Origin: a virus
DNA: 25,288 nucleotides
Strand: one strand, 5' to 3'
IMG/VR virus record: IMGVR_UViG_3300042564_000273
Span: 1-25,288 of that record
The translations under genes and the position numbers were made by a program. This document shows, one piece after another, positions 1,655-9,988 of this stretch; positions within the stretch are counted from its first letter, which is position 1; every line of letters begins with the position of its first letter. The notes beneath the pieces were generated by a model. That model saw nothing but the letters and a program-made list of their open reading frames with translations. It had not been told where the DNA came from and did no database searches.

Positions 1655-1903
1655 ATGAAACTATTAAACTTTATTGGAGGTCTTTTCAAAGATGAAAAAG
1701 GCTCCGTTTCCATGAAGCGCCTGTGTGGCTTAGTCTGCACTTTAACTCTTTGCGCTACTCTGTATGCTAACTCTTTTACTGAAGCACACTTTGCTCCATC
1801 TGTACCCTTAGTGGATGCAGTTGCATTGCTTGCGTTTGGTTGTCTTGGGCTCACAACTTTTGAGAAAGTAATGAAGAAGCCAGAAGCTAATACTGAGGAG
1901 TAA
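1655..1903 (+). CDS. Holin-like small membrane protein
   Basis: An 82-residue protein with two hydrophobic segments: residues about 22-41 (RLCGLVCTLTLCATLYANSF) and about 52-72 (around VALLAFGCLGLTTFEK). A charged N-terminus with KDEKG precedes the first, and a short charged tail ends the protein (KKPEANTEE). Two helices, small size and a position immediately upstream of the peptidoglycan-cleaving enzyme fit a class II holin, which opens the inner membrane at lysis. The gene is visibly richer in GC and in codons such as CGC, CTG and TGC than its neighbours, which may mean a separate origin. A second two-helix candidate lies at 5517, so which one is the holin is open. Confidence 0.65.
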   Translation: MKLLNFIGGLFKDEKGSVSMKRLCGLVCTLTLCATLYANSFTEAHFAPSVPLVDAVALLAFGCLGLTTFEKVMKKPEANTEE

Positions 1904-1952: not shown

Positions 1953-2510
1953 ATGAGTTTTACTAGAGAACAAATTGAAGCAGCTGTTAAAGCTAAGAGC
2001 TACAAGTATTTTGAAAACGGAGAATTCAATATCAATGTAATTGGTATTCGTAATAGTGCAACCGGACAAAAAGTTACCAATGCATTTGATGATTGGATGA
2101 CTTTAAGTTACAAAGAGGGTGGAGAATGGAAGTTCCATATCTGGCCTTGCACCACAGACAATGGTGGAGGAACTGCTCGTGTTAAACCAGGACAATATCC
2201 AGGATCACATGGTGTAGGTCTTCACCAAGGTAAATACAAATGTCTTAAACAGAAAGCACCTCTTACTGTATTTCGTGACTATACTAAAGATGGAGTATAC
2301 CAAGAAGACAAAACTGAAACAGGTGTATTTGGAATCAACATTCACAAAGCAGGAGTAGATTCTGCTCAAGTAAATGACTGGAGTCATGGTTGTCAAGTAT
2401 TTAAAAAATCTGCTGATTTTGATAAATTTCTTGCTATCTGCGAGAAAGGTGCTAAATTACAGGGAGATTCTTTTACTTACACTTTGATTAAATCAGAAGA
2501 TATTAAATAA
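1953..2510 (+). CDS. Peptidoglycan-active enzyme with L,D-transpeptidase (YkuD)-like catalytic motif, probable endolysin
   Basis: A 185-residue protein without a signal peptide. Near the C-terminus it has a His at residue 131 (NIHKAG) followed by WSHGCQVF (residues 143-150). This matches the H-x(n)-SHGC signature of YkuD-type L,D-transpeptidases, with Cys147 as the likely nucleophile; the usual Arg after the Cys is replaced (GCQV). Upstream, WPCTTDN and the VKPGQYPGSHG segment also resemble the fold. Because the gene directly follows a holin-like gene, the protein probably acts on host peptidoglycan at lysis, either as a peptidase using the same fold or as a modifying enzyme. The fold assignment is fairly strong; the cleaved bond is inference. 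Confidence 0.7.
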   Translation: MSFTREQIEAAVKAKSYKYFENGEFNINVIGIRNSATGQKVTNAFDDWMTLSYKEGGEWKFHIWPCTTDNGGGTARVKPGQYPGSHGVGLHQGKYKCLKQKAPLTVFRDYTKDGVYQEDKTETGVFGINIHKAGVDSAQVNDWSHGCQVFKKSADFDKFLAICEKGAKLQGDSFTYTLIKSEDIK

Positions 2511-2511
2511 T

Positions 2512-3198
2512 ATGCATGATTCTATTTTGGGGTTTCCTAGTACTTCAGGTATATACAAGATAACTTCTCCTACAGGTAAAGTCTATGTAGGTGAGGCTGT
2601 TAACTTGCGTATACGTTGTAGTTACTACTTAACCCCAAATAGAGTTAAAAAACAAAGAGCTATTTATAATTCTTTGGTAAAGCATGGTGTTGAGTTACAC
2701 AAGATTGAAATACTAGAATTTTGCTCTAGTGAAAATCTTTTAGAAAGAGAAAGGTATTATCAAGAACAATTTTGTAGTGTAGAAAATGGTTTAAACTGTT
2801 ATCTAACTCCTACGCATGAAAAGAAAAAAGTTCTGTCTTTAGGTACAAAACAACTTATGTCTTTAAAAGCTACAGGAGTAAACAATGCTTTCTATGGAAA
2901 GAAACACTCTACAGAGTCTTTAAGTAAGATATCAGAATCTTCTTTTGGCAGTAATAATCCTAATTACGGAGGAAAACTACAAACCGAAGAGTATCTAATA
3001 AAGCAAAGTATTTCTAATAGTAAAAAACATCTTAAGTTAACTAACACTATTACAGGAGAAATTCACATCTTCTTAAACTCTAAACAAGCTGCAGAGTTTG
3101 TAGGAGTAGGTGCTAGTAATATCAGAGAATGTAAGAAATCTAAAAACAAAGCAAAAAGAATCTATCTAGTAGAAGATTATGAAATCTGTACTAATTAG
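2512..3198 (+). CDS. Free-standing GIY-YIG homing endonuclease
   Basis: A 228-residue protein. The N-terminal nuclease domain shows GIY (residues 13-15), YVG (25-27), a conserved Arg (about 33) and a Glu in the LERER motif (about 80), the expected catalytic set. Two NUMOD3-type DNA-binding repeats follow: NNAFYGKKHSTES (about 124-136) and NNPNYGGKLQTEE (about 148-160). A helix-turn-helix of the NUMOD1/IENR type follows (SKQAAEFVGVGASNIREC, about 190-207). It starts one base after the endolysin stop, and its 3' end overlaps the next gene by 20 nt, so it sits as an insert inside the late operon. Both neighbours look intact, so it behaves as a selfish free-standing nuclease (Seg-like) rather than an intron ORF. 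Confidence 0.9.
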   Translation: MHDSILGFPSTSGIYKITSPTGKVYVGEAVNLRIRCSYYLTPNRVKKQRAIYNSLVKHGVELHKIEILEFCSSENLLERERYYQEQFCSVENGLNCYLTPTHEKKKVLSLGTKQLMSLKATGVNNAFYGKKHSTESLSKISESSFGSNNPNYGGKLQTEEYLIKQSISNSKKHLKLTNTITGEIHIFLNSKQAAEFVGVGASNIRECKKSKNKAKRIYLVEDYEICTN

Positions 3199-3631
3199 TA
3201 TTCTTTTAATATTCTTAGCCGTCCCTTGTTTTGCTCAAATCAAAATTGACAAAGCTGGGGACGGTTGGGATTTAAAAGTTGATTCAGCAATTCAACTGAT
3301 AAAGAAGGTAGACATAGATAAGTACAAGATGCTTGATACAAATTGTTCTCAAGTATCTTTTATGATAAGTCCCTACTCTTCTTGTGAACTAGAGAATGGT
3401 AAAGGTCACATCTACATAGCTGTAGCTGATCTTAAACTAAACTCTATAAATAACATTGCTGTAGTTCTAGTACATGAAAGCTTACATCTCTATATAGCAA
3501 AGAAAGGTATAGATATGATTCCGGAAAAAGAGGAAACATTTTGCTACATGTATGAACTCAGCTTTATAAAAAACTTAGAAAATCCTGAGCCTTGGCTCAT
3601 AGAACACGCTATAAATAACATAAAAAAATGA
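3179..3631 (+). CDS. Exported HExxH metallopeptidase-like protein
   Basis: A 150-residue protein with a classic signal peptide (MKSVLISILLIFLAVPCFA) and predicted cleavage before Gln20. The mature part contains HESLH at residues 99-103, the HExxH zinc motif, followed by EKEETFCYMYE (about 116-126), whose Glu118 or Glu119 could be the third ligand as in gluzincin-like peptidases. This suggests a small zinc peptidase acting in the periplasm or outside the cell. The family is not recognised further. The start overlaps the upstream endonuclease gene, and the stop overlaps the next start by 4 nt (ATGA), so the next gene is probably translationally coupled. Substrate unknown. A non-catalytic relative cannot be excluded. 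Confidence 0.7.
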   Translation: MKSVLISILLIFLAVPCFAQIKIDKAGDGWDLKVDSAIQLIKKVDIDKYKMLDTNCSQVSFMISPYSSCELENGKGHIYIAVADLKLNSINNIAVVLVHESLHLYIAKKGIDMIPEKEETFCYMYELSFIKNLENPEPWLIEHAINNIKK

Positions 3632-5520
3632 AAAAATTTATCTCTTCACTTGTAACTACTTTGTTTGCAACAGTAATGTTTGCACAAAGTTCTAGCACAT
3701 CTCCAGGTACGGGCCACTGGGTTGTGATTGATTCTGGCTACCAAGTTGCTACTACTACTGCAGGACAAACAGTAGCACCTTTACATTTCTATAACACATC
3801 TACCTCTGAAAGCATCACAGGTATGCAGTTCCGTGTATTCTACGATAACACTGCATTCACTGGTGTAGTTCCTTCTTTGAAGATCTCTACTTCAGATCAG
3901 TACTTACAGTACGTAGATAGTAACACCCAAGGATTCTTGACTGTAACTTTAGCTTACACTGGATCTAGTGCTAGCTTTAACTACTCTAATGGCGCTACTT
4001 TTGACCTTACATTTACTCATGCCGGTAGTGCAGTATGGAATAACTTAGATTCTATTAAGACTTTAAAAGTTGCGGGTGTTAAATCATTTGCTAACAAAGC
4101 TGCTACTAACTGGGGTAATGATACTACTTTGGTAGTTTACTCTTATGGTGGTCGTTTCAATCAGAAAGTATTACGTTTTGCTGCTAAGTTTAAAAACGTT
4201 ACAGGTTCAGATGCTAAGAACTTGTGGGTGTCTTTAGAGAAGAAAGCTCCTTCAGGATCTTGGACTCAAGTAGAAGCTAAAGCAACTAACTCTTTAGGAC
4301 ATGTTGTATTTAAAAAATTCTTAGATACTACTTACTGGGATGTACGTATGGTAGTTAAAGGTGATACAATGATTCCCGGTAACGTATTCTCTACTGCAGA
4401 TGCACAGAAGACTAACCAGGCTATCTTAGGTCAATACACTCCTTCAGGATTTGATTACTATACAATGGATGTAAACGGAACTGATGGTTCTATTACTATT
4501 GCTGACGTATACTCTGTGTACGGACGTTTAGCTGGTAGATTCTCTAGCTGGCCTAACTCTAAGAAAGATGTAATGTTCTTCACAGTTGCTGAGTACAATG
4601 CTATTAACGGAGCAGCTACTAACTTAACTTCTACTTATTCTACTATTAATAACTTTAACTACACTATTGACGGTAAAGATTCTATCACTTACTACGTAGC
4701 TGTTAAAGGAGATGCAAACTCTACCGGCTTTAAGATGGCCCGTTTAACTCCTATCAAGATTACTAATCCAGCTAATGCTAAGCGTTACATCATTGATGAG
4801 ACTGTAAGTTATGATTTCCCTGCAGAGACTATTGAGATTAACATGCCTAAAGTAACTGTAGATGAAGGTAACTTAGTTAACGTTCCTGTTAAAGTTCTTA
4901 CCAATGGTAAGCAATTAGGTGCACTTCAGTTAGACTTGCGTTATGACACTGCTTACTTAGAGTTTAAGAAAGTAGAGAATACTGAAAAGATGATGAAGTG
5001 GACTTCTTACTTAAACCCTTCTAACGGTACAGTATCTTGGGGAGCAGCTGACTTAACTAATGAAAACTTCTTAAATGACGGAGAGCAAGTATTTACTCTT
5101 CAGTTTATTGCTAAGAAGCCACAAGATTCTTGGGCTACTGCAGCTTTATGGACCGGTGCTAAGTATGTAGGTGATGTAAAAGCAAAAGACATGAACATTA
5201 CTCCTGCTATGGGTATTATAGAAGTACGTAGAATTAACAAGGGTGTAGTATCTCTTAATGATCTTAACTCTGTAATTGTATTCCCTAACCCTACAGATGG
5301 CGCAGTACAGATCCAGTTCCAGATTAAACATGATGCTGAAGTAGATGTAGCTATCTCTGATGAAGTAGGAAGACGCATTCAAACTATTCTAAATGAAAAG
5401 ATGCCTGCCGGTAAGTATAAGTATAGTGCTAATCTAGATCGTCTCTCAGATGGTGTATATGTACTTACCGTAGTAACAGAGCATGAAGTATTACATTCTA
5501 AAATTGTCGTAAATAAATGA
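3628..5520 (+). CDS. T9SS-exported surface protein with cohesin-like, dockerin-like and C-terminal sorting domains
   Basis: A 630-residue protein. A signal peptide (MKKFISSLVTTLFATVMFA, then Gln20) is followed by a cohesin-like beta domain (about 31-175, with MQFRVFYDNTAFTG), an Ig-like segment (about 176-250) and a dockerin-like region (about 251-305: STADAQKTNQAIL, then DVNGTDGSITIADVY). Next come a module shared with the gene at 8346 (to about 370), a second cohesin-like domain (about 400-535: VNVPVKVL, LGALQLDLRYDTAYLEF) and a T9SS type A sorting domain (about 547-630: VFPNPTDG, then LSDGVYVLTV and KIVVNK). In Bacteroidota this C-terminus sends proteins through the type IX system, which removes it and attaches or releases the cargo. 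The protein is therefore expected on the surface of the infected cell. Such a cargo in a phage is unusual. Function there is unknown. Confidence 0.85.
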   Translation: MKKFISSLVTTLFATVMFAQSSSTSPGTGHWVVIDSGYQVATTTAGQTVAPLHFYNTSTSESITGMQFRVFYDNTAFTGVVPSLKISTSDQYLQYVDSNTQGFLTVTLAYTGSSASFNYSNGATFDLTFTHAGSAVWNNLDSIKTLKVAGVKSFANKAATNWGNDTTLVVYSYGGRFNQKVLRFAAKFKNVTGSDAKNLWVSLEKKAPSGSWTQVEAKATNSLGHVVFKKFLDTTYWDVRMVVKGDTMIPGNVFSTADAQKTNQAILGQYTPSGFDYYTMDVNGTDGSITIADVYSVYGRLAGRFSSWPNSKKDVMFFTVAEYNAINGAATNLTSTYSTINNFNYTIDGKDSITYYVAVKGDANSTGFKMARLTPIKITNPANAKRYIIDETVSYDFPAETIEINMPKVTVDEGNLVNVPVKVLTNGKQLGALQLDLRYDTAYLEFKKVENTEKMMKWTSYLNPSNGTVSWGAADLTNENFLNDGEQVFTLQFIAKKPQDSWATAALWTGAKYVGDVKAKDMNITPAMGIIEVRRINKGVVSLNDLNSVIVFPNPTDGAVQIQFQIKHDAEVDVAISDEVGRRIQTILNEKMPAGKYKYSANLDRLSDGVYVLTVVTEHEVLHSKIVVNK

Positions 5521-5867
5521 ACATTAAAAAAGCACTTGGCCTTAGCCAAGCAGAACCCGTAGCTGTAGATCCTAATAACAGGTTCTACTACATGCTACAA
5601 CAAATGCAAGCCAACCGTTGGAAGATTACAGCAATTGTATTAGGTTTGTTTACTTTAATTATTGTTGGCATTAATGCCGCAGTATTTATGGAAGCTTCTA
5701 TTGGAGAAGACTGGAAAGAGATGTTACTTATTTTGTTAGGTGCCTTTGTTGGTAATCTAAACAAAGTAGTTGACTACTGGTTTAACTCTGAGGACCGTGA
5801 CAAGATGCTAATCCAAAAAGTTGATGAAGAAGACGGAGAATCATTATCTAATACAACCAATCCATAA
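5517..5867 (+). CDS. Small two-helix membrane protein (second holin candidate)
   Basis: A 116-residue protein starting with an ATGA overlap on the previous stop. Two hydrophobic helices are visible: residues about 36-58 (WKITAIVLGLFTLIIVGINA) and about 66-89 (WKEMLLILLGAFVGNLNKVV). A soluble N-terminus of about 33 residues precedes them, and an acidic C-terminal tail follows (EDRDKMLIQKVDEEDGES). Size and topology fit a holin or a holin-associated membrane protein. It is followed by a one-helix membrane protein and a lipoprotein, an order reminiscent of holin/spanin cassettes. No family-level match is recalled, so the lysis role is inference. Confidence 0.6.
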   Translation: MNIKKALGLSQAEPVAVDPNNRFYYMLQQMQANRWKITAIVLGLFTLIIVGINAAVFMEASIGEDWKEMLLILLGAFVGNLNKVVDYWFNSEDRDKMLIQKVDEEDGESLSNTTNP

Positions 5868-5871
5868 TAAT

Positions 5872-6201
5872 ATGTCTGAGGAACAACAAGAAGAAAGCGT
5901 AATGTCAGCTACCAAGAAAGCAATTATTGGTGCTGTTACTACAGCTGTTACAGCCGGGGGTGCCTGGTTTGCAACCCACTTAGGCGGTGGTGAAGAGTCT
6001 AAAGAAGAAGCTAAGACAGAACAAGCTGCACCCGGTGCACCTGTTGTGATTAACTTACAGAACAACAATACAAACCAACAGAAGCAATCTAGTGGTGGTG
6101 GAACAAACACAGTTATTAAAGAACGTGTGATTGAAAAACAAGCACCTGCACCAGCTGCTCCTGCTGCTAAGCCAAAAGAGGAGGAATCTGATCCGTGGTA
6201 A
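5872..6201 (+). CDS. Small protein with one membrane segment and Pro/Ala-rich tail (spanin-like?)
   Basis: A 109-residue protein. The ATG at 5872, four bases after the previous stop, is preferred over an in-frame ATG at 5821 lying inside the preceding gene. After a polar N-terminus (MSEEQQEESVM), a hydrophobic helix spans about residues 17-37 (IIGAVTTAVTAGGAWFATHL). An acidic stretch, an Asn/Gln-rich segment (INLQNNNTNQQKQ), and a Pro/Ala/Lys-rich C-terminus ending in EEESDPW follow. Low complexity prevents family assignment. A single anchor with an extended tail next to a lipoprotein gene recalls inner-membrane/outer-membrane spanin pairs. That is inference. The stop overlaps the next start by 7 nt. 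Confidence 0.6.
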   Translation: MSEEQQEESVMSATKKAIIGAVTTAVTAGGAWFATHLGGGEESKEEAKTEQAAPGAPVVINLQNNNTNQQKQSSGGGTNTVIKERVIEKQAPAPAAPAAKPKEEESDPW

Positions 6202-6893
6202 AAAAATGGTTTAATAAGTTTATGACTTTAGTAGTCATGACTCTTGCTGGTTGTGGTTCTATGAAAACAACAACTGATGGGGAAGCTGTAGAGAGCAAAG
6301 ATATCTCTACAGTTTCTTCCTATACTGATTCTATTAAGAAAACAGTGCAGGTAGTTAGTGTAGACATGACAAAAGTTCTTTCTTTATATCCTGCTTTACA
6401 GGAAAAGAATGTAGGACTTGGTTTTGCTGAGTCAGTACTAGATTATTTAGATGAAACTAATAGATTTATATTCACCGAAGAAAAATCAGAGATTAAAGAA
6501 AGAATGGTTACTCAATTCAAAGCCTCTAAAAAAGGTGTATTTGATGAGCCAATTGATGGAAAAGGTAAGATTAAACCTGCTCACTACTTTGTTTATGTTA
6601 CTGTGGCTGATTTTGCTGTTGATGAAGACGAGCAAGTTGATGGTCTTAAGTCAAAAGTTGTTGTTACTACCTTCATACGTTTACAGGTCCGTTTTGTGGA
6701 TGCTAAAACAGGTCAGATCTATATTGGTTCTGGTGAAGGTGAGTCAACAAAAACTGGTGAATCATTCTTGAAGTCTCTAGATGATATGAAATTCTCTCAA
6801 AGTACTGTAGGTAAAGCTACCCGTAAGTCTCTTGAAACTGCTTGCACTAATGTGATTCAAAATCTCATTAAGTCAGGTGTATTTACAAACTAA
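6195..6893 (+). CDS. CsgG-like outer-membrane lipoprotein
   Basis: A 232-residue protein starting at GTG 6195; the ATG at 6222 would leave too short a signal. It has a type II signal peptide with lipobox LAGC (Cys20). The mature part matches the CsgG / curli-assembly pattern: a helical segment (GLGFAESVLDYL...RFIFTEEKSEIKERM, about 74-104), then a beta-rich part with HYFVYVTVADF (about 130-140), TFIRLQVRFVDAKTGQIYIG (about 159-178), SGEGES, and a late helix VGKATRKSLETACTNVIQNL (about 205-224). CsgG proteins form outer-membrane export pores, and related lipoproteins act in envelope assembly. In a phage it may insert in the outer membrane of the infected host. The family call is from pattern memory; the pore function is not demonstrated. 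Its 3' end overlaps the next gene by 17 nt. Confidence 0.7.
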   Translation: MVKKWFNKFMTLVVMTLAGCGSMKTTTDGEAVESKDISTVSSYTDSIKKTVQVVSVDMTKVLSLYPALQEKNVGLGFAESVLDYLDETNRFIFTEEKSEIKERMVTQFKASKKGVFDEPIDGKGKIKPAHYFVYVTVADFAVDEDEQVDGLKSKVVVTTFIRLQVRFVDAKTGQIYIGSGEGESTKTGESFLKSLDDMKFSQSTVGKATRKSLETACTNVIQNLIKSGVFTN

Positions 6894-8349
6894 GATACTA
6901 ACCCTATTTATGATAATAGCTCTGTCCGTAAATGGGCAGGGCTTTATGTTTTCGTATACAGACCCATGTACACAAGAACTTAAATTTATTAATGCTGATA
7001 TGTCCAGTCCTATAGTAATAGCTTACTACGGACAAGTTAAAACTTTCTCTTATACAGAATTACAAGACGGAACATTTGACAATTGGATAAATAGTGTATA
7101 TTTGAAGTATAAAAATACATCACCCTGTCAAGGAGTTGGAGTAACTACAACTACAACTACCACAACAAATACAACTCTAAACATTGTAAGTAATGTAATG
7201 AACTTAGGGTCTATTTCAAATGTTGGTAGTGTAAACATAGATGTGGGATCTAGCACCTCTTCAGGGACTAACGTAGGAACAACAAACTCAAATAATAAAA
7301 CCAATGACAGCAGAACTAATTCTCGGAATCGTACTAGTGGCAGCTCTAGTAGTTCTAATTCTTCTAGCAGCTCGCCAGGAGAAACTGGAAGCAACAGCAA
7401 TGGAGGAAACCCACCAGAAAATCAAAGCGGGACTACAGACAACTCCGGCTCCAACCCCAATCCCGGAAGTGGTAGTGGCAGCGGAGAAGGTAATGGAGGA
7501 AGCAGTGGCTCCGGCTCCAGTGGAAGTTCCAGTGGTAGCGGAAGTAGTAGTGGAAGCTCCCAAGGAGGAAGTGGTGGCGGAGGTAAAACCGAAGAAAAAA
7601 CGCAAGTACAAGAAGAAAAGCCCACAGACCAACAAGTAGAAGATACTAAGACTGAGCAACAAAAGACTCAGTCTAGTAGCACTGCTAAGGCTGCTAATAA
7701 AGCCAAAGCTGAGGTTGCTAAACCAGCAATCTTAGTTACAGGTGATTTAGTTGGTATACAAACAAAATCTGACGGAGCTCAGGATGCAAGGGGTACTATG
7801 TCCTTTACAAGAGTAAAAGGAGATGGTACTTCTTCTCTTGGGTTTTCAGCTGATTATATGCTTAATGCTAAGATCGGTAATATCTCCTGTGTCCGTTCAT
7901 GGATAGGAGCAAATAAAAAAGGTAACAAACACATCAGTGTTGTATCAGATGGTATAAGTCTGATGCCTAAAGCCTTCTCTAACACAGCTCTGTTTGTTAG
8001 AGTAAATTCAGTAAAGAACTTTACAGCACTCTATGGAGCAGCTGGTACCTATGGTAAACTATACGGAGAAACAATGATCTCTACAATTGCTATAGGTGGA
8101 TTTATGTATAAGGGTAAACTTACTAAAAGTATAGATGCTACAATTATAGCAGCCGGAATCTACTCTCCCTATACCAAGTATTTTACAGAGTCTATATTTA
8201 AATCTAAGCCCATTGTAATTCCTTTCTTTAACTTTACCTATAAGATGACCAAGACTTTTGGCTTAGGTATTACAGGAGGAGGAACTTATGTGGCAGGACA
8301 AGACATCCTGAACTTTCAAATTTTAATGGGAGCTAAGTTACTGATATGA
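6877..8349 (+). CDS. Exported protein with Gly/Ser-rich linker and barrel-like C-terminal domain
   Basis: A 490-residue protein starting at GTG 6877, because a start at the later ATG (6910) would remove the basic n-region. The signal peptide reads MYLQTKILTLFMIIALSVNG, then Gln21. A short domain to about residue 85 has two Cys (DPCTQEL and SPCQG) and may be disulphide-bonded. Thr/Ser/Asn- and then Gly/Ser-rich sequence of extreme low complexity follows (about 90-235), then a charged Gln/Glu/Lys segment and an Ala/Lys stretch (to about 275). The C-terminal 215 residues are beta-rich with alternating hydrophobic strands and many Gly, ending ILMGAKLLI, as in outer-membrane beta-barrels. No family recognised. 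A different gene is encoded in the +1 frame inside the linker (7304-7639). The stop overlaps the next start (ATGA). Confidence 0.8.
   Translation: MYLQTKILTLFMIIALSVNGQGFMFSYTDPCTQELKFINADMSSPIVIAYYGQVKTFSYTELQDGTFDNWINSVYLKYKNTSPCQGVGVTTTTTTTTNTTLNIVSNVMNLGSISNVGSVNIDVGSSTSSGTNVGTTNSNNKTNDSRTNSRNRTSGSSSSSNSSSSSPGETGSNSNGGNPPENQSGTTDNSGSNPNPGSGSGSGEGNGGSSGSGSSGSSSGSGSSSGSSQGGSGGGGKTEEKTQVQEEKPTDQQVEDTKTEQQKTQSSSTAKAANKAKAEVAKPAILVTGDLVGIQTKSDGAQDARGTMSFTRVKGDGTSSLGFSADYMLNAKIGNISCVRSWIGANKKGNKHISVVSDGISLMPKAFSNTALFVRVNSVKNFTALYGAAGTYGKLYGETMISTIAIGGFMYKGKLTKSIDATIIAAGIYSPYTKYFTESIFKSKPIVIPFFNFTYKMTKTFGLGITGGGTYVAGQDILNFQILMGAKLLI
7304..7639 (+). CDS. Nested (overprinted) gene: one-helix membrane protein with Pro/Ala/Val-rich arm and basic tail
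   Basis: An ATG-started reading frame of 111 codons lies wholly inside the linker of the exported protein gene, in the +1 frame. The product looks like a real protein: a single strongly hydrophobic helix (residues about 5-22, ELILGIVLVAALVVLILL), a short charged helix (ARQEKLEATAMEETHQKIK), a Pro/Ala/Val/Glu-rich extended arm (TPAPTPIPEVVV, APAPVEVPVVAEVV) and a very basic end (KPKKKRKYKKK). This is the layout of TonB-like or inner-membrane spanin-like proteins, which reach across the periplasm. Phage lysis genes are known to nest this way (Rz/Rz1 of lambda). The Gly/Ser bias of the outer frame could itself generate Val/Ala/Glu codons, so the frame might be a shadow, but a clean membrane helix at the very start argues against that. 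Confidence 0.55.
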   Translation: MTAELILGIVLVAALVVLILLAARQEKLEATAMEETHQKIKAGLQTTPAPTPIPEVVVAAEKVMEEAVAPAPVEVPVVAEVVVEAPKEEVVAEVKPKKKRKYKKKSPQTNK

Positions 8350-9542
8350 GATGGATTATTGTTTTATTCTTTCTTACAGAGTCTCTGAGTGCACAGTTTA
8401 ATTACTCCGGGTATCTTTATAACGCAAATGGTTCTGGTGCTTCTAACGTAGCTGTAAAACTATTTAAGAGTACCGCAGGAGCAACTACAAAGACAGGTAC
8501 CCTAACTAAGATAACTTCTGGTATTCCTTCTGATAGAGGAAGAGGGGTTTCTGTTTTACATTCTACTCTTAACACAGATGAGAAATCAGTTGCTGTAACT
8601 ATTCCTTTCACGGTAAGTTATGCAGGTACAAATTATACAAGTGGTCACGTTAACTCTAACTCTTGGTTTTGTTTTGGGACAACCTCTAGCTCTGGATATA
8701 ACGGAAGTGCTACTAGTCCTAATCAACCTACTATCCATATAGGTTCAGTTAATAACAGTTCTACAGATAATAATGTTTCTTATGTTTCAACTGAAGCTTA
8801 TACAGATGGAACTTATGGAGATGTATTTAGAGTCAGGTATGAAGGTAACTGTAAATACAATCAGACAGGAATCAACTATGTTTGGGATTTGTACTTTATT
8901 AAAAACCAAACCTCAAAACAGATAGTAGTTTGGAGAACATTTACAGCTGATGGTTCAAACCAAGAACAAATGGGTATATCAACAGGTAGTGCTTGGTTAG
9001 CAAGTACTTTAGTTACTGCTGGTACTTTTGCTAGTACTACTTGGGAAATAACTTCAACCTCAACTACAACAACCTCGTCTAGCTCTTTAGATGCTACAGC
9101 ATATACTAACTCGTCAGGATATTATTCTTTTTCAAGAACTACAGTAGCAGGAGATCAATTTACAATTCAGGTAGATGCTCCAACTAGAGTACAAGCCTAT
9201 ACTACTACAGATATACAAAGTGTCTCTAATATTATTTTAGGAAAGATTGTAGCTAATGGTTTATCCTATCACATATTTGATGTAAATGATGACGGAAGAA
9301 TAAATATAGCAGACAAGTACTACGTAGCTGCTAGGAAAGCAGGAAGATTTAGTAAGTGGAGAATAGCTCCGGATGTAAGAATCTTTACTTTAGCTCAGTA
9401 CAATGCAATAGTGTCCTCTAAAGTGAACACACGTGTAACTTACCCCGGTATTAGCACGTATACAACTTCTACTTTAACTAGTGGAGGAACTCTTAATTTA
9501 TATATAATAGCTCCTGGATATTCTGGAGCAGTAACTTACTAA
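8346..9542 (+). CDS. Exported adhesin-like protein with dockerin-like module
   Basis: A 398-residue protein with a signal peptide (MRWIIVLFFLTESLSA, then Gln17). Residues 18-50 begin a carboxypeptidase-regulatory-like beta domain (SGYLYNANGSGASNVAVKLF) that seems to resume at about 250 (AYTNSSGYYSFSRTTVAGDQ), with a beta-rich Ser/Thr-laden domain between them (about 60-235). A dockerin-like module follows (about 285-335: TTDIQSVSNIILGK, then DVNDDGRINIADKYYVAARK), continuing AGRFSKW...DVRIFTLAQYNAI as in the gene at 3628. The DxNxDG loop suggests calcium binding. Unlike that gene it lacks a T9SS sorting domain, ending GYSGAVTY, so its export route beyond the periplasm is unclear. It could instead be a partner of the cohesin-like domains. 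Function unknown. Confidence 0.75.
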   Translation: MRWIIVLFFLTESLSAQFNYSGYLYNANGSGASNVAVKLFKSTAGATTKTGTLTKITSGIPSDRGRGVSVLHSTLNTDEKSVAVTIPFTVSYAGTNYTSGHVNSNSWFCFGTTSSSGYNGSATSPNQPTIHIGSVNNSSTDNNVSYVSTEAYTDGTYGDVFRVRYEGNCKYNQTGINYVWDLYFIKNQTSKQIVVWRTFTADGSNQEQMGISTGSAWLASTLVTAGTFASTTWEITSTSTTTTSSSSLDATAYTNSSGYYSFSRTTVAGDQFTIQVDAPTRVQAYTTTDIQSVSNIILGKIVANGLSYHIFDVNDDGRINIADKYYVAARKAGRFSKWRIAPDVRIFTLAQYNAIVSSKVNTRVTYPGISTYTTSTLTSGGTLNLYIIAPGYSGAVTY

Positions 9543-9544
9543 CC

Positions 9545-9988
9545 ATGAAAAAATTATTTATACTAACGTTCATTGTCACTATGGTGACTTCTCTGAGTGC
9601 TCAATGCTACAAAGTTGACACTGTTTCTAACACTGCTACTGTAAAGTATTTACTAGACAGACCTGTAGAGTTTGGTGCTAAAGCTACACTGGAAGAGTTA
9701 ATCTCTGATAAGTATAGTCTATGTGATTCCGGAAGTATTGTATCTGGAGAAATCGTATCTGTTGCAATGCCGGAACAATTACTAAACATTGTAGGACTAC
9801 AGTTCTTAAAGAGACAGTATATCATTACAACTAAGGTTGTTATCAATGGTAAAAGCTATATGGGTACTGCTACTAAGACAATGTTTGTAAATGCCATGTT
9901 TGTAGAGGTAGCCGGTATACCTCATAACAAGAAGGTTTTTTACAAGACCATGCAGCAATCCCTGAAAAATGCTGTAAATTATATATAA
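9545..9988 (+). CDS. Small exported protein of unknown function
   Basis: A 147-residue protein with a signal peptide (MKKLFILTFIVTMVTSLSA, then Gln20-Cys21). Because Cys follows the Gln, the cleavage could be by signal peptidase I; the LSAQC sequence is not a good lipobox. The mature protein looks like a compact alpha/beta fold with several strands (RQYIITTKVVINGKSYMG) and a C-terminal helix (KKVFYKTMQQSLKNAVNYI), plus a second Cys (LCDSG). It starts two bases after the previous stop and closes the run of exported genes. No family recognised. The fold layout vaguely recalls small envelope-assembly proteins, but this is not enough for a call. Confidence 0.65.
   Translation: MKKLFILTFIVTMVTSLSAQCYKVDTVSNTATVKYLLDRPVEFGAKATLEELISDKYSLCDSGSIVSGEIVSVAMPEQLLNIVGLQFLKRQYIITTKVVINGKSYMGTATKTMFVNAMFVEVAGIPHNKKVFYKTMQQSLKNAVNYI

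Follow-up and report, generated by a model that had tools for sequence, protein, structure and literature searches.

A predicted membrane-protein gene nested in the linker of an exported-protein gene of Bacteroidota-type phages, with standalone homologues in a lysis-type cassette

Overlapping genes are usually argued for from statistics alone. In phage phiX174 the lysis protein E is nested in gene D and combines an N-terminal membrane helix with a basic cytoplasmic C-terminus. MraY inhibitors of the E type carry the motif Arg-Trp-x-x-Trp (PMC11812184), and in the Rz/Rz1 pair of lambda, Rz is an N-in inner-membrane protein and Rz1 an outer-membrane lipoprotein with a lipobox (PMC6139136).

The DNA examined here, referred to as the window, is the complete stretch of 25,288 nucleotides of the IMG/VR virus record IMGVR_UViG_3300042564_000273. 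The phages that carry the nested gene described below belong to Bacteroidota-type bacteria. As in lambda Rz/Rz1 (PMC6139136), a small gene for a membrane-associated product lies wholly within an envelope-protein gene, in its +1 frame and close to lysis genes; however, the inner protein lacks Cys, is predicted to be oriented N-out/C-in and occurs also without the outer gene. It shares with phiX174 E its small size, the nesting in another frame, the N-terminal helix and the basic C-terminus, but it contains no Arg-Trp-x-x-Trp motif (indeed no Trp at all), an endolysin-like gene lies nearby and the inner gene is also found standalone. The tailed-phage holins provide a third comparison, being short membrane proteins of conserved layout and variable sequence encoded beside an endolysin-like gene, whereas the protein studied here has one predicted span, a long cytoplasmic arm and a basic tail, is nested in the gene of an outer-membrane protein and coexists with a separate holin-like gene (1655-1903). 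Like overprinted viral genes in general (reviewed in PMC8227390), it is a novel frame inside an older gene, in this case in its disordered part, and it differs from them by its standalone copies and by a promoter match inside the host gene.

The outer gene, its linker and the nested reading frame

The outer protein comprises, in order, a signal peptide, an N-terminal domain, a Thr tract, a Gly/Ser/Asn linker and a C-terminal beta-barrel-like domain. Its signal region (LSVNGQGF) has no lipobox Cys, and the best PDB fold matches of the C-terminal domain, obtained with a low-confidence model, are mostly outer-membrane barrels. The features of the locus are as follows (clades and standalone homologues are described in the next section).

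6877..8349, + strand: outer gene, exported protein of 490 aa, GTG start
7075..7104, + strand: promoter match TTTG-N18-TATATTTG of the Bacteroidota -33/-7 type, inside the outer gene
7247..7594, + strand: Gly/Ser/Asn linker of the outer protein, approximate extent, predicted disordered
7304..7639, + strand: nested (inner) gene, intact, ATG start, 111 aa, in the +1 frame of the outer gene
7316..7372, + strand: predicted single membrane helix, inner residues 5-23 (hydropathy, outer-synonymous depletion, AlphaFold)
7412..7432, + strand: inner motif HQKIKAG, common to the standalone gene of L124 and the short nested form of clade C
7478..7504, + strand: inner motif AAEKVMEEA (AAEKVMKEA in standalone homologues, AAQEVMxEA in clade B)
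7586..7618, + strand: basic tail of the inner protein, KPKKKRKYKKK; K95 to K103 do not vary among nested and standalone forms

The inner protein, as translated from the window, runs MTAELILGIVLVAALVVLILLAARQEK...KPKKKRKYKKKSPQTNK (111 aa). AlphaFold models it as a continuous helix over residues 2-41 and a short helix over 55-65, the remainder being of low confidence. The layout given in the preliminary description (N-terminal helix, Pro/Ala/Val/Glu arm and Lys-rich end) is indeed read in the inner frame, and the outer frame over the nested ORF is Gly/Ser/Asn-rich as stated there.

This composition limits what the frame itself can tell. A stop in the +1 frame can arise only if T is the middle base of an outer codon, which is the case for none of the codons of Gly, Ser, Asn, Thr, Pro, Glu, Lys, Gln, and Asp, so an open +1 frame proves nothing and its openness, trivial given the linker composition, was dropped as evidence for a gene. 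The richness of the inner frame in Val, Ala, Glu, Leu, and Ile likewise follows from the composition of the outer linker and is no evidence either.

A polar low-complexity linker is present in every relative, Immutovirus included, and is Gly/Ser/Asn-rich throughout the clades. As relatives lacking the inner gene also possess it, the linker is older than the 111-codon form, and the proposal that it arose as a by-product of selection on the inner gene is not supported, given that Immutovirus has the linker without that gene. Only in clades A and B do the codons and residues of the linker appear to have been shaped by the inner gene.

Relatives, standalone homologues and gene neighborhood

Searches with the inner protein retrieved 14 viral contigs; 80 loci were retrieved with the outer C-terminal domain as query, which takes no account of the inner frame. 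Clade A comprises 20 distinct sequences with an outer C-terminal domain mostly at least 91% identical to that of the window, and clade B two sequences with 82–87% identity. The inner ORF is full length, with the same ATG and the helix-arm-KPKKKRKYK layout, in all 22 distinct outer genes of these two clades. Clade C encodes a shorter nested form (46–50 aa) that stops after HQKIKAG, and clades D to G have different +1 ORFs in the linker. The expectation that related phages retaining the linker would also retain the inner frame thus stands for clades A and B, where the ORF is intact throughout, but not beyond them: the other clades keep the linker with shorter or different +1 ORFs, which makes the 111-codon form specific to clades A and B. 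Among the relatives of the outer gene that were found, only Immutovirus, the outgroup, is named (31.6% identity); its +1 frame is open over a long stretch and encodes no membrane helix. No close relatives were found among cultured phages, and tblastn searches of cultured phages with the inner protein and the L124 protein gave no match.

Two further observations concern this set. In two clade C loci (L068 and L083) a second hydrophobic +1 ORF follows the stop of the short nested ORF, so that one linker may hold two small membrane ORFs. Contig RFPL01000028.1 (L126), catalogued as a Sphingomonadaceae MAG, carries clade B outer and inner genes and is probably a phage contig that was wrongly binned.

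A profile of the nested proteins led to standalone homologues in L124 and L125, and the L124 protein in turn to those in L129 and L130. The clade A/B HMM scores them with E values of 2e-20 to 2e-15, one copy per record. Nested and standalone proteins share the helix with R24/E26, the QKIKAG motif (within QQKIKAG in L129 instead of HQKIKAG), AAEKVMKEA and KPKKKRKYKPRN. Both other forward frames of the standalone ORFs are full of stops; the same protein is thus also encoded where no linker constrains it, which argues that the gene is real and not an accident of the linker. These homologues are the decisive result for the reality of the gene.

The standalone copies lie in a lysis-type cassette. 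In L124 and L129 the order is virion protein, holin-like protein, endolysin-like protein, a protein with a transmembrane segment and coiled coil (TM+coiled-coil), exported protein, inner homologue and tail-type gene, with a GIY-YIG gene inserted after the endolysin-like gene in L129. The flanks of the standalone locus also surround the operon of the window, the virion protein being 68–69% identical, and no match to the outer gene was found in the L124 and L125 contigs (97 and 50 kb). The TM+coiled-coil protein of the cassette shows a weak match to Rz-like spanins (E 0.09). Its gene overlaps that of the exported protein in L129 (3219-3928), the second member of the pair having no lipobox; these two proteins are a possible two-component lysis pair, the first i-spanin-like.

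Three genes upstream of the outer gene in the window are relevant to this comparison.

1655..1903, + strand: holin-like protein, 82 aa, membrane-type, called from size and layout alone; near-identical gene in the standalone loci
1953..2510, + strand: endolysin-like protein, weak call; homologues upstream of the outer gene in relatives
6195..6893, + strand: gene for a lipoprotein with a weak LpoB-like signal, upstream of the outer gene

No family match was found for the holin-like product, and PDB sequence searches with the lipoprotein and the endolysin-like protein returned nothing useful. The L129 copy of the endolysin-like protein matches phrog_3000 and, weakly, the endolysin phrog_33083 and YkuD. 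In the clade A and B records with readable coordinates the endolysin-like gene lies 4–5 kb upstream of the outer gene; the same query had no match in the records of clades C, D, and F, L088 and Immutovirus. A GIY-YIG homing endonuclease (2512-3198; in L129, absent from L124) separates the endolysin-like gene from an operon of exported proteins (3179-9988), parts of which recur in Immutovirus. This operon encodes an HExxH-containing protein, a cohesin with a Por secretion tail, small TM proteins, the LpoB-like lipoprotein, a barrel-like protein and a weak dockerin-like match, and is replaced by three small genes in L124 and L129.

Selection on the inner frame, promoter match and origin

The comparison of substitution rates in both frames that had been suggested for this locus was made in clade A (20 sequences), with the expected outer-synonymous rate taken from the flanks of the outer gene itself. 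A global two-frame omega fit was dropped in favor of these observed/expected (O/E) rates, since hardly any site is synonymous in the two frames at once, which leaves the fit weakly identifiable. Over the helix (SGSSSSSNSSSSSPG) 4 outer-synonymous changes are seen against 23.8 expected (O/E 0.17, p 8e-7), a p value that is optimistic for a single window because recombination alters local rates in clade A (other windows O/E about 0.4). Changes that are nonsynonymous in the outer and synonymous in the inner frame occur there at 0.40 of the neutral rate. A window overlapping the basic tail has an outer-synonymous O/E of 0.37. Directly downstream of the nested gene (7726-7870) the value in clade A is also about 0.4, possibly as a result of recombination.

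Serine codons segregate according to what the inner frame needs, TCT giving Leu and TCC giving Pro in that frame: the TCT:TCC ratio is 99:0 in the helix and 1:106 in the arm, compared with 197:31 downstream and 313:77 in the linkers of other clades. As the sequences are related, these counts are not independent and p values serve as guides.

Synonymous codon shuffles of the linker point in the same direction. The hydropathy of the helix is 3.35 against a shuffled mean of 1.91 (p 0.0015), and a layout of Met, helix and basic tail at the score of the window arose in none of 1000 shuffles. Other clades were dropped as inner-free controls, since they have +1 helices too, and the other frames and Immutovirus were used instead. 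The combined p over 19 relatives is 2e-15 for the +1 frame, whereas the other forward frame and two reverse frames are null (0.34, 0.86, and 0.98) and the third reverse frame is weak (0.001). The layout is also above chance in clades B, D, E, and G; clade C and the singletons vary, up to 63% of the shuffles of clade C linkers yielding a comparable layout. In sum, the nested membrane-protein gene of the preliminary description is upheld by the standalone homologues, the conservation in clades A and B and the loss of the helix in codon shuffles, and the inner ORF is, judging from sequence, almost certainly a genuine, selected and complete gene in the linker.

A second nested ORF in the window, of 106 aa with a hydrophobic stretch (6451-6771, + strand), lies within the lipoprotein gene (6195-6893) and has similar counterparts in relatives. 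It was rejected as a gene, the synonymous rates of its host gene being mostly normal with one low window (6600-6644), and is probably a by-product.

The promoter match, of the flavobacterial type (consensus from PMC6847099 and PMC9723704), precedes the inner start by about 200 bp. It occurs in 22 of the 22 clade A/B outer genes and in none of 42 others under a looser pattern and spacing; the clade B copy in L126 keeps the inner ORF without it. Across the 3' part of the match, including the -7 box, clade A shows no synonymous changes against 20 expected, the zero-change block being defined by 15-codon windows starting at 7081-7099 with the TTTG end just outside. In L129 the -7 box TATATTTG directly precedes the standalone ATG, with TTG at a spacing of 18 nt; L124 has the same box in this position and no matching -33. 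The pattern TTTG-N17-21-TANNTTTG is found three times in the window, compared with 0.9 by chance. From this pattern an internal promoter at 7075-7104 is likely, and transcription of the inner gene would probably start from it. Translation would begin at the ATG at 7304, which sits in an A-rich context as expected for Bacteroidota (PMC6847099). RNA structure in the leader (7112-7320) is not convincing (z -1.7).

The inner frame is under selection of its own and the outer frame is the older of the two, as in overprinting. Insertion of a standalone gene into the linker was ruled out by the stops in its other forward frames, which such an insertion would have brought into the outer frame; birth by overprinting followed by escape is therefore the simpler order. 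The tree places the standalone forms among the nested ones, though support is weak and branches are long. We infer that the linker was there before the gene, which originated within it and turned standalone afterwards in at least one lineage. A broader proposal, at somewhat less than even odds, sees the low-complexity linker of this outer-membrane-type protein as a nursery for membrane-protein genes. Nearly the whole family would contain a +1 ORF with Met, membrane helix and basic tail, unrelated between clades, and in one lineage the overprinted gene would have gained its own promoter and later escaped, to persist standalone in the lysis cassette after loss of the host gene.

Topology, function and significance

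The N-terminal flank of the inner protein contains no Lys or Arg in the representatives listed for clades A and B and for other clades, and the 20 residues after the helix contain 3–6 in clades A and B and 4–9 in most others, L090 being an exception. An N-out/C-in topology is predicted from this asymmetry by the positive-inside rule only. The product would thus be a small single-span inner-membrane protein with a short acidic N-terminus and a membrane helix continuing as a cytoplasmic helix; a flexible arm would lead from there to a short amphipathic helix (AAEKVMEEA) and on to the strictly conserved Lys-rich tail. Family searches returned only chance-level matches and none that names a function; a holin match, to phrog_1350 with L129 only, is not significant (E 0.19).

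The favored reading, considered moderately probable, is that of an overprinted small inner-membrane protein with its own promoter, oriented N-out/C-in and belonging to the lysis region with a role there. Such a role is plausible from gene neighborhood and layout: as holins do, the standalone forms occur as small membrane proteins in a lysis cassette, beside endolysin-like and holin-like genes. The protein would most likely contribute to lysis from the inner membrane, either as a holin-class protein or by setting lysis timing, an assignment favored by the endolysin-like gene upstream in clades A and B and by the place of the standalone gene within the cassette. It would work independently of the outer protein.

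An inner-membrane protein for host takeover or superinfection exclusion instead of lysis is the strongest of the competing functions, though an unlikely one; it would suit a small N-out/C-in protein with a basic tail, the operon of the window encodes several exported proteins and there is no functional family match, but the standalone forms are directly in the lysis-type cassette, ahead of the tail-type gene. Distinctly improbable is the nested pair put forward in the preliminary description, a spanin- or TonB-like bridge with its arm in the periplasm that would disrupt the outer membrane together with the outer protein. The Pro/Ala/Val arm and Lys-rich end recall TonB linkers, and the barrel-like outer C-terminus and lysis-type neighborhood fit; this pairing is nevertheless not borne out, since the charges predict the reverse of the TonB or i-spanin orientation (L090 excepted), neither protein has a lipobox, the inner protein matches no TonB or spanin family and no Pfam C-terminal TonB domain, its homologue occurs in phage contigs with no outer-gene match and the separate TM+coiled-coil protein of the standalone cassette looks more like an i-spanin. 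Hardly credible is a by-product of the low-complexity linker conserved through kinship, since the composition-driven openness and A/V/E/I/L richness, the helix-free open frame of Immutovirus and the clade C shuffles that speak for it are outweighed by standalone homologues without an overlapping frame, outer-synonymous depletion, serine codon segregation, the shuffle tests and the confinement of the promoter match to clades A and B.

With the same protein encoded both nested and free, this family offers a natural control for gene overlap: it becomes possible to tell selection on the inner frame from that on the outer one and to judge the cost of overlap by comparing nested with freed copies. 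The findings also suggest that disordered Gly/Ser linkers readily permit new membrane proteins to arise, that genes nested in this way would be missed by annotation pipelines and that a promoter located within one phage gene can serve the expression of a different one. Should the proposed part in lysis prove right, the lysis systems of Bacteroidota phages, which are poorly known, would gain an unannotated component.
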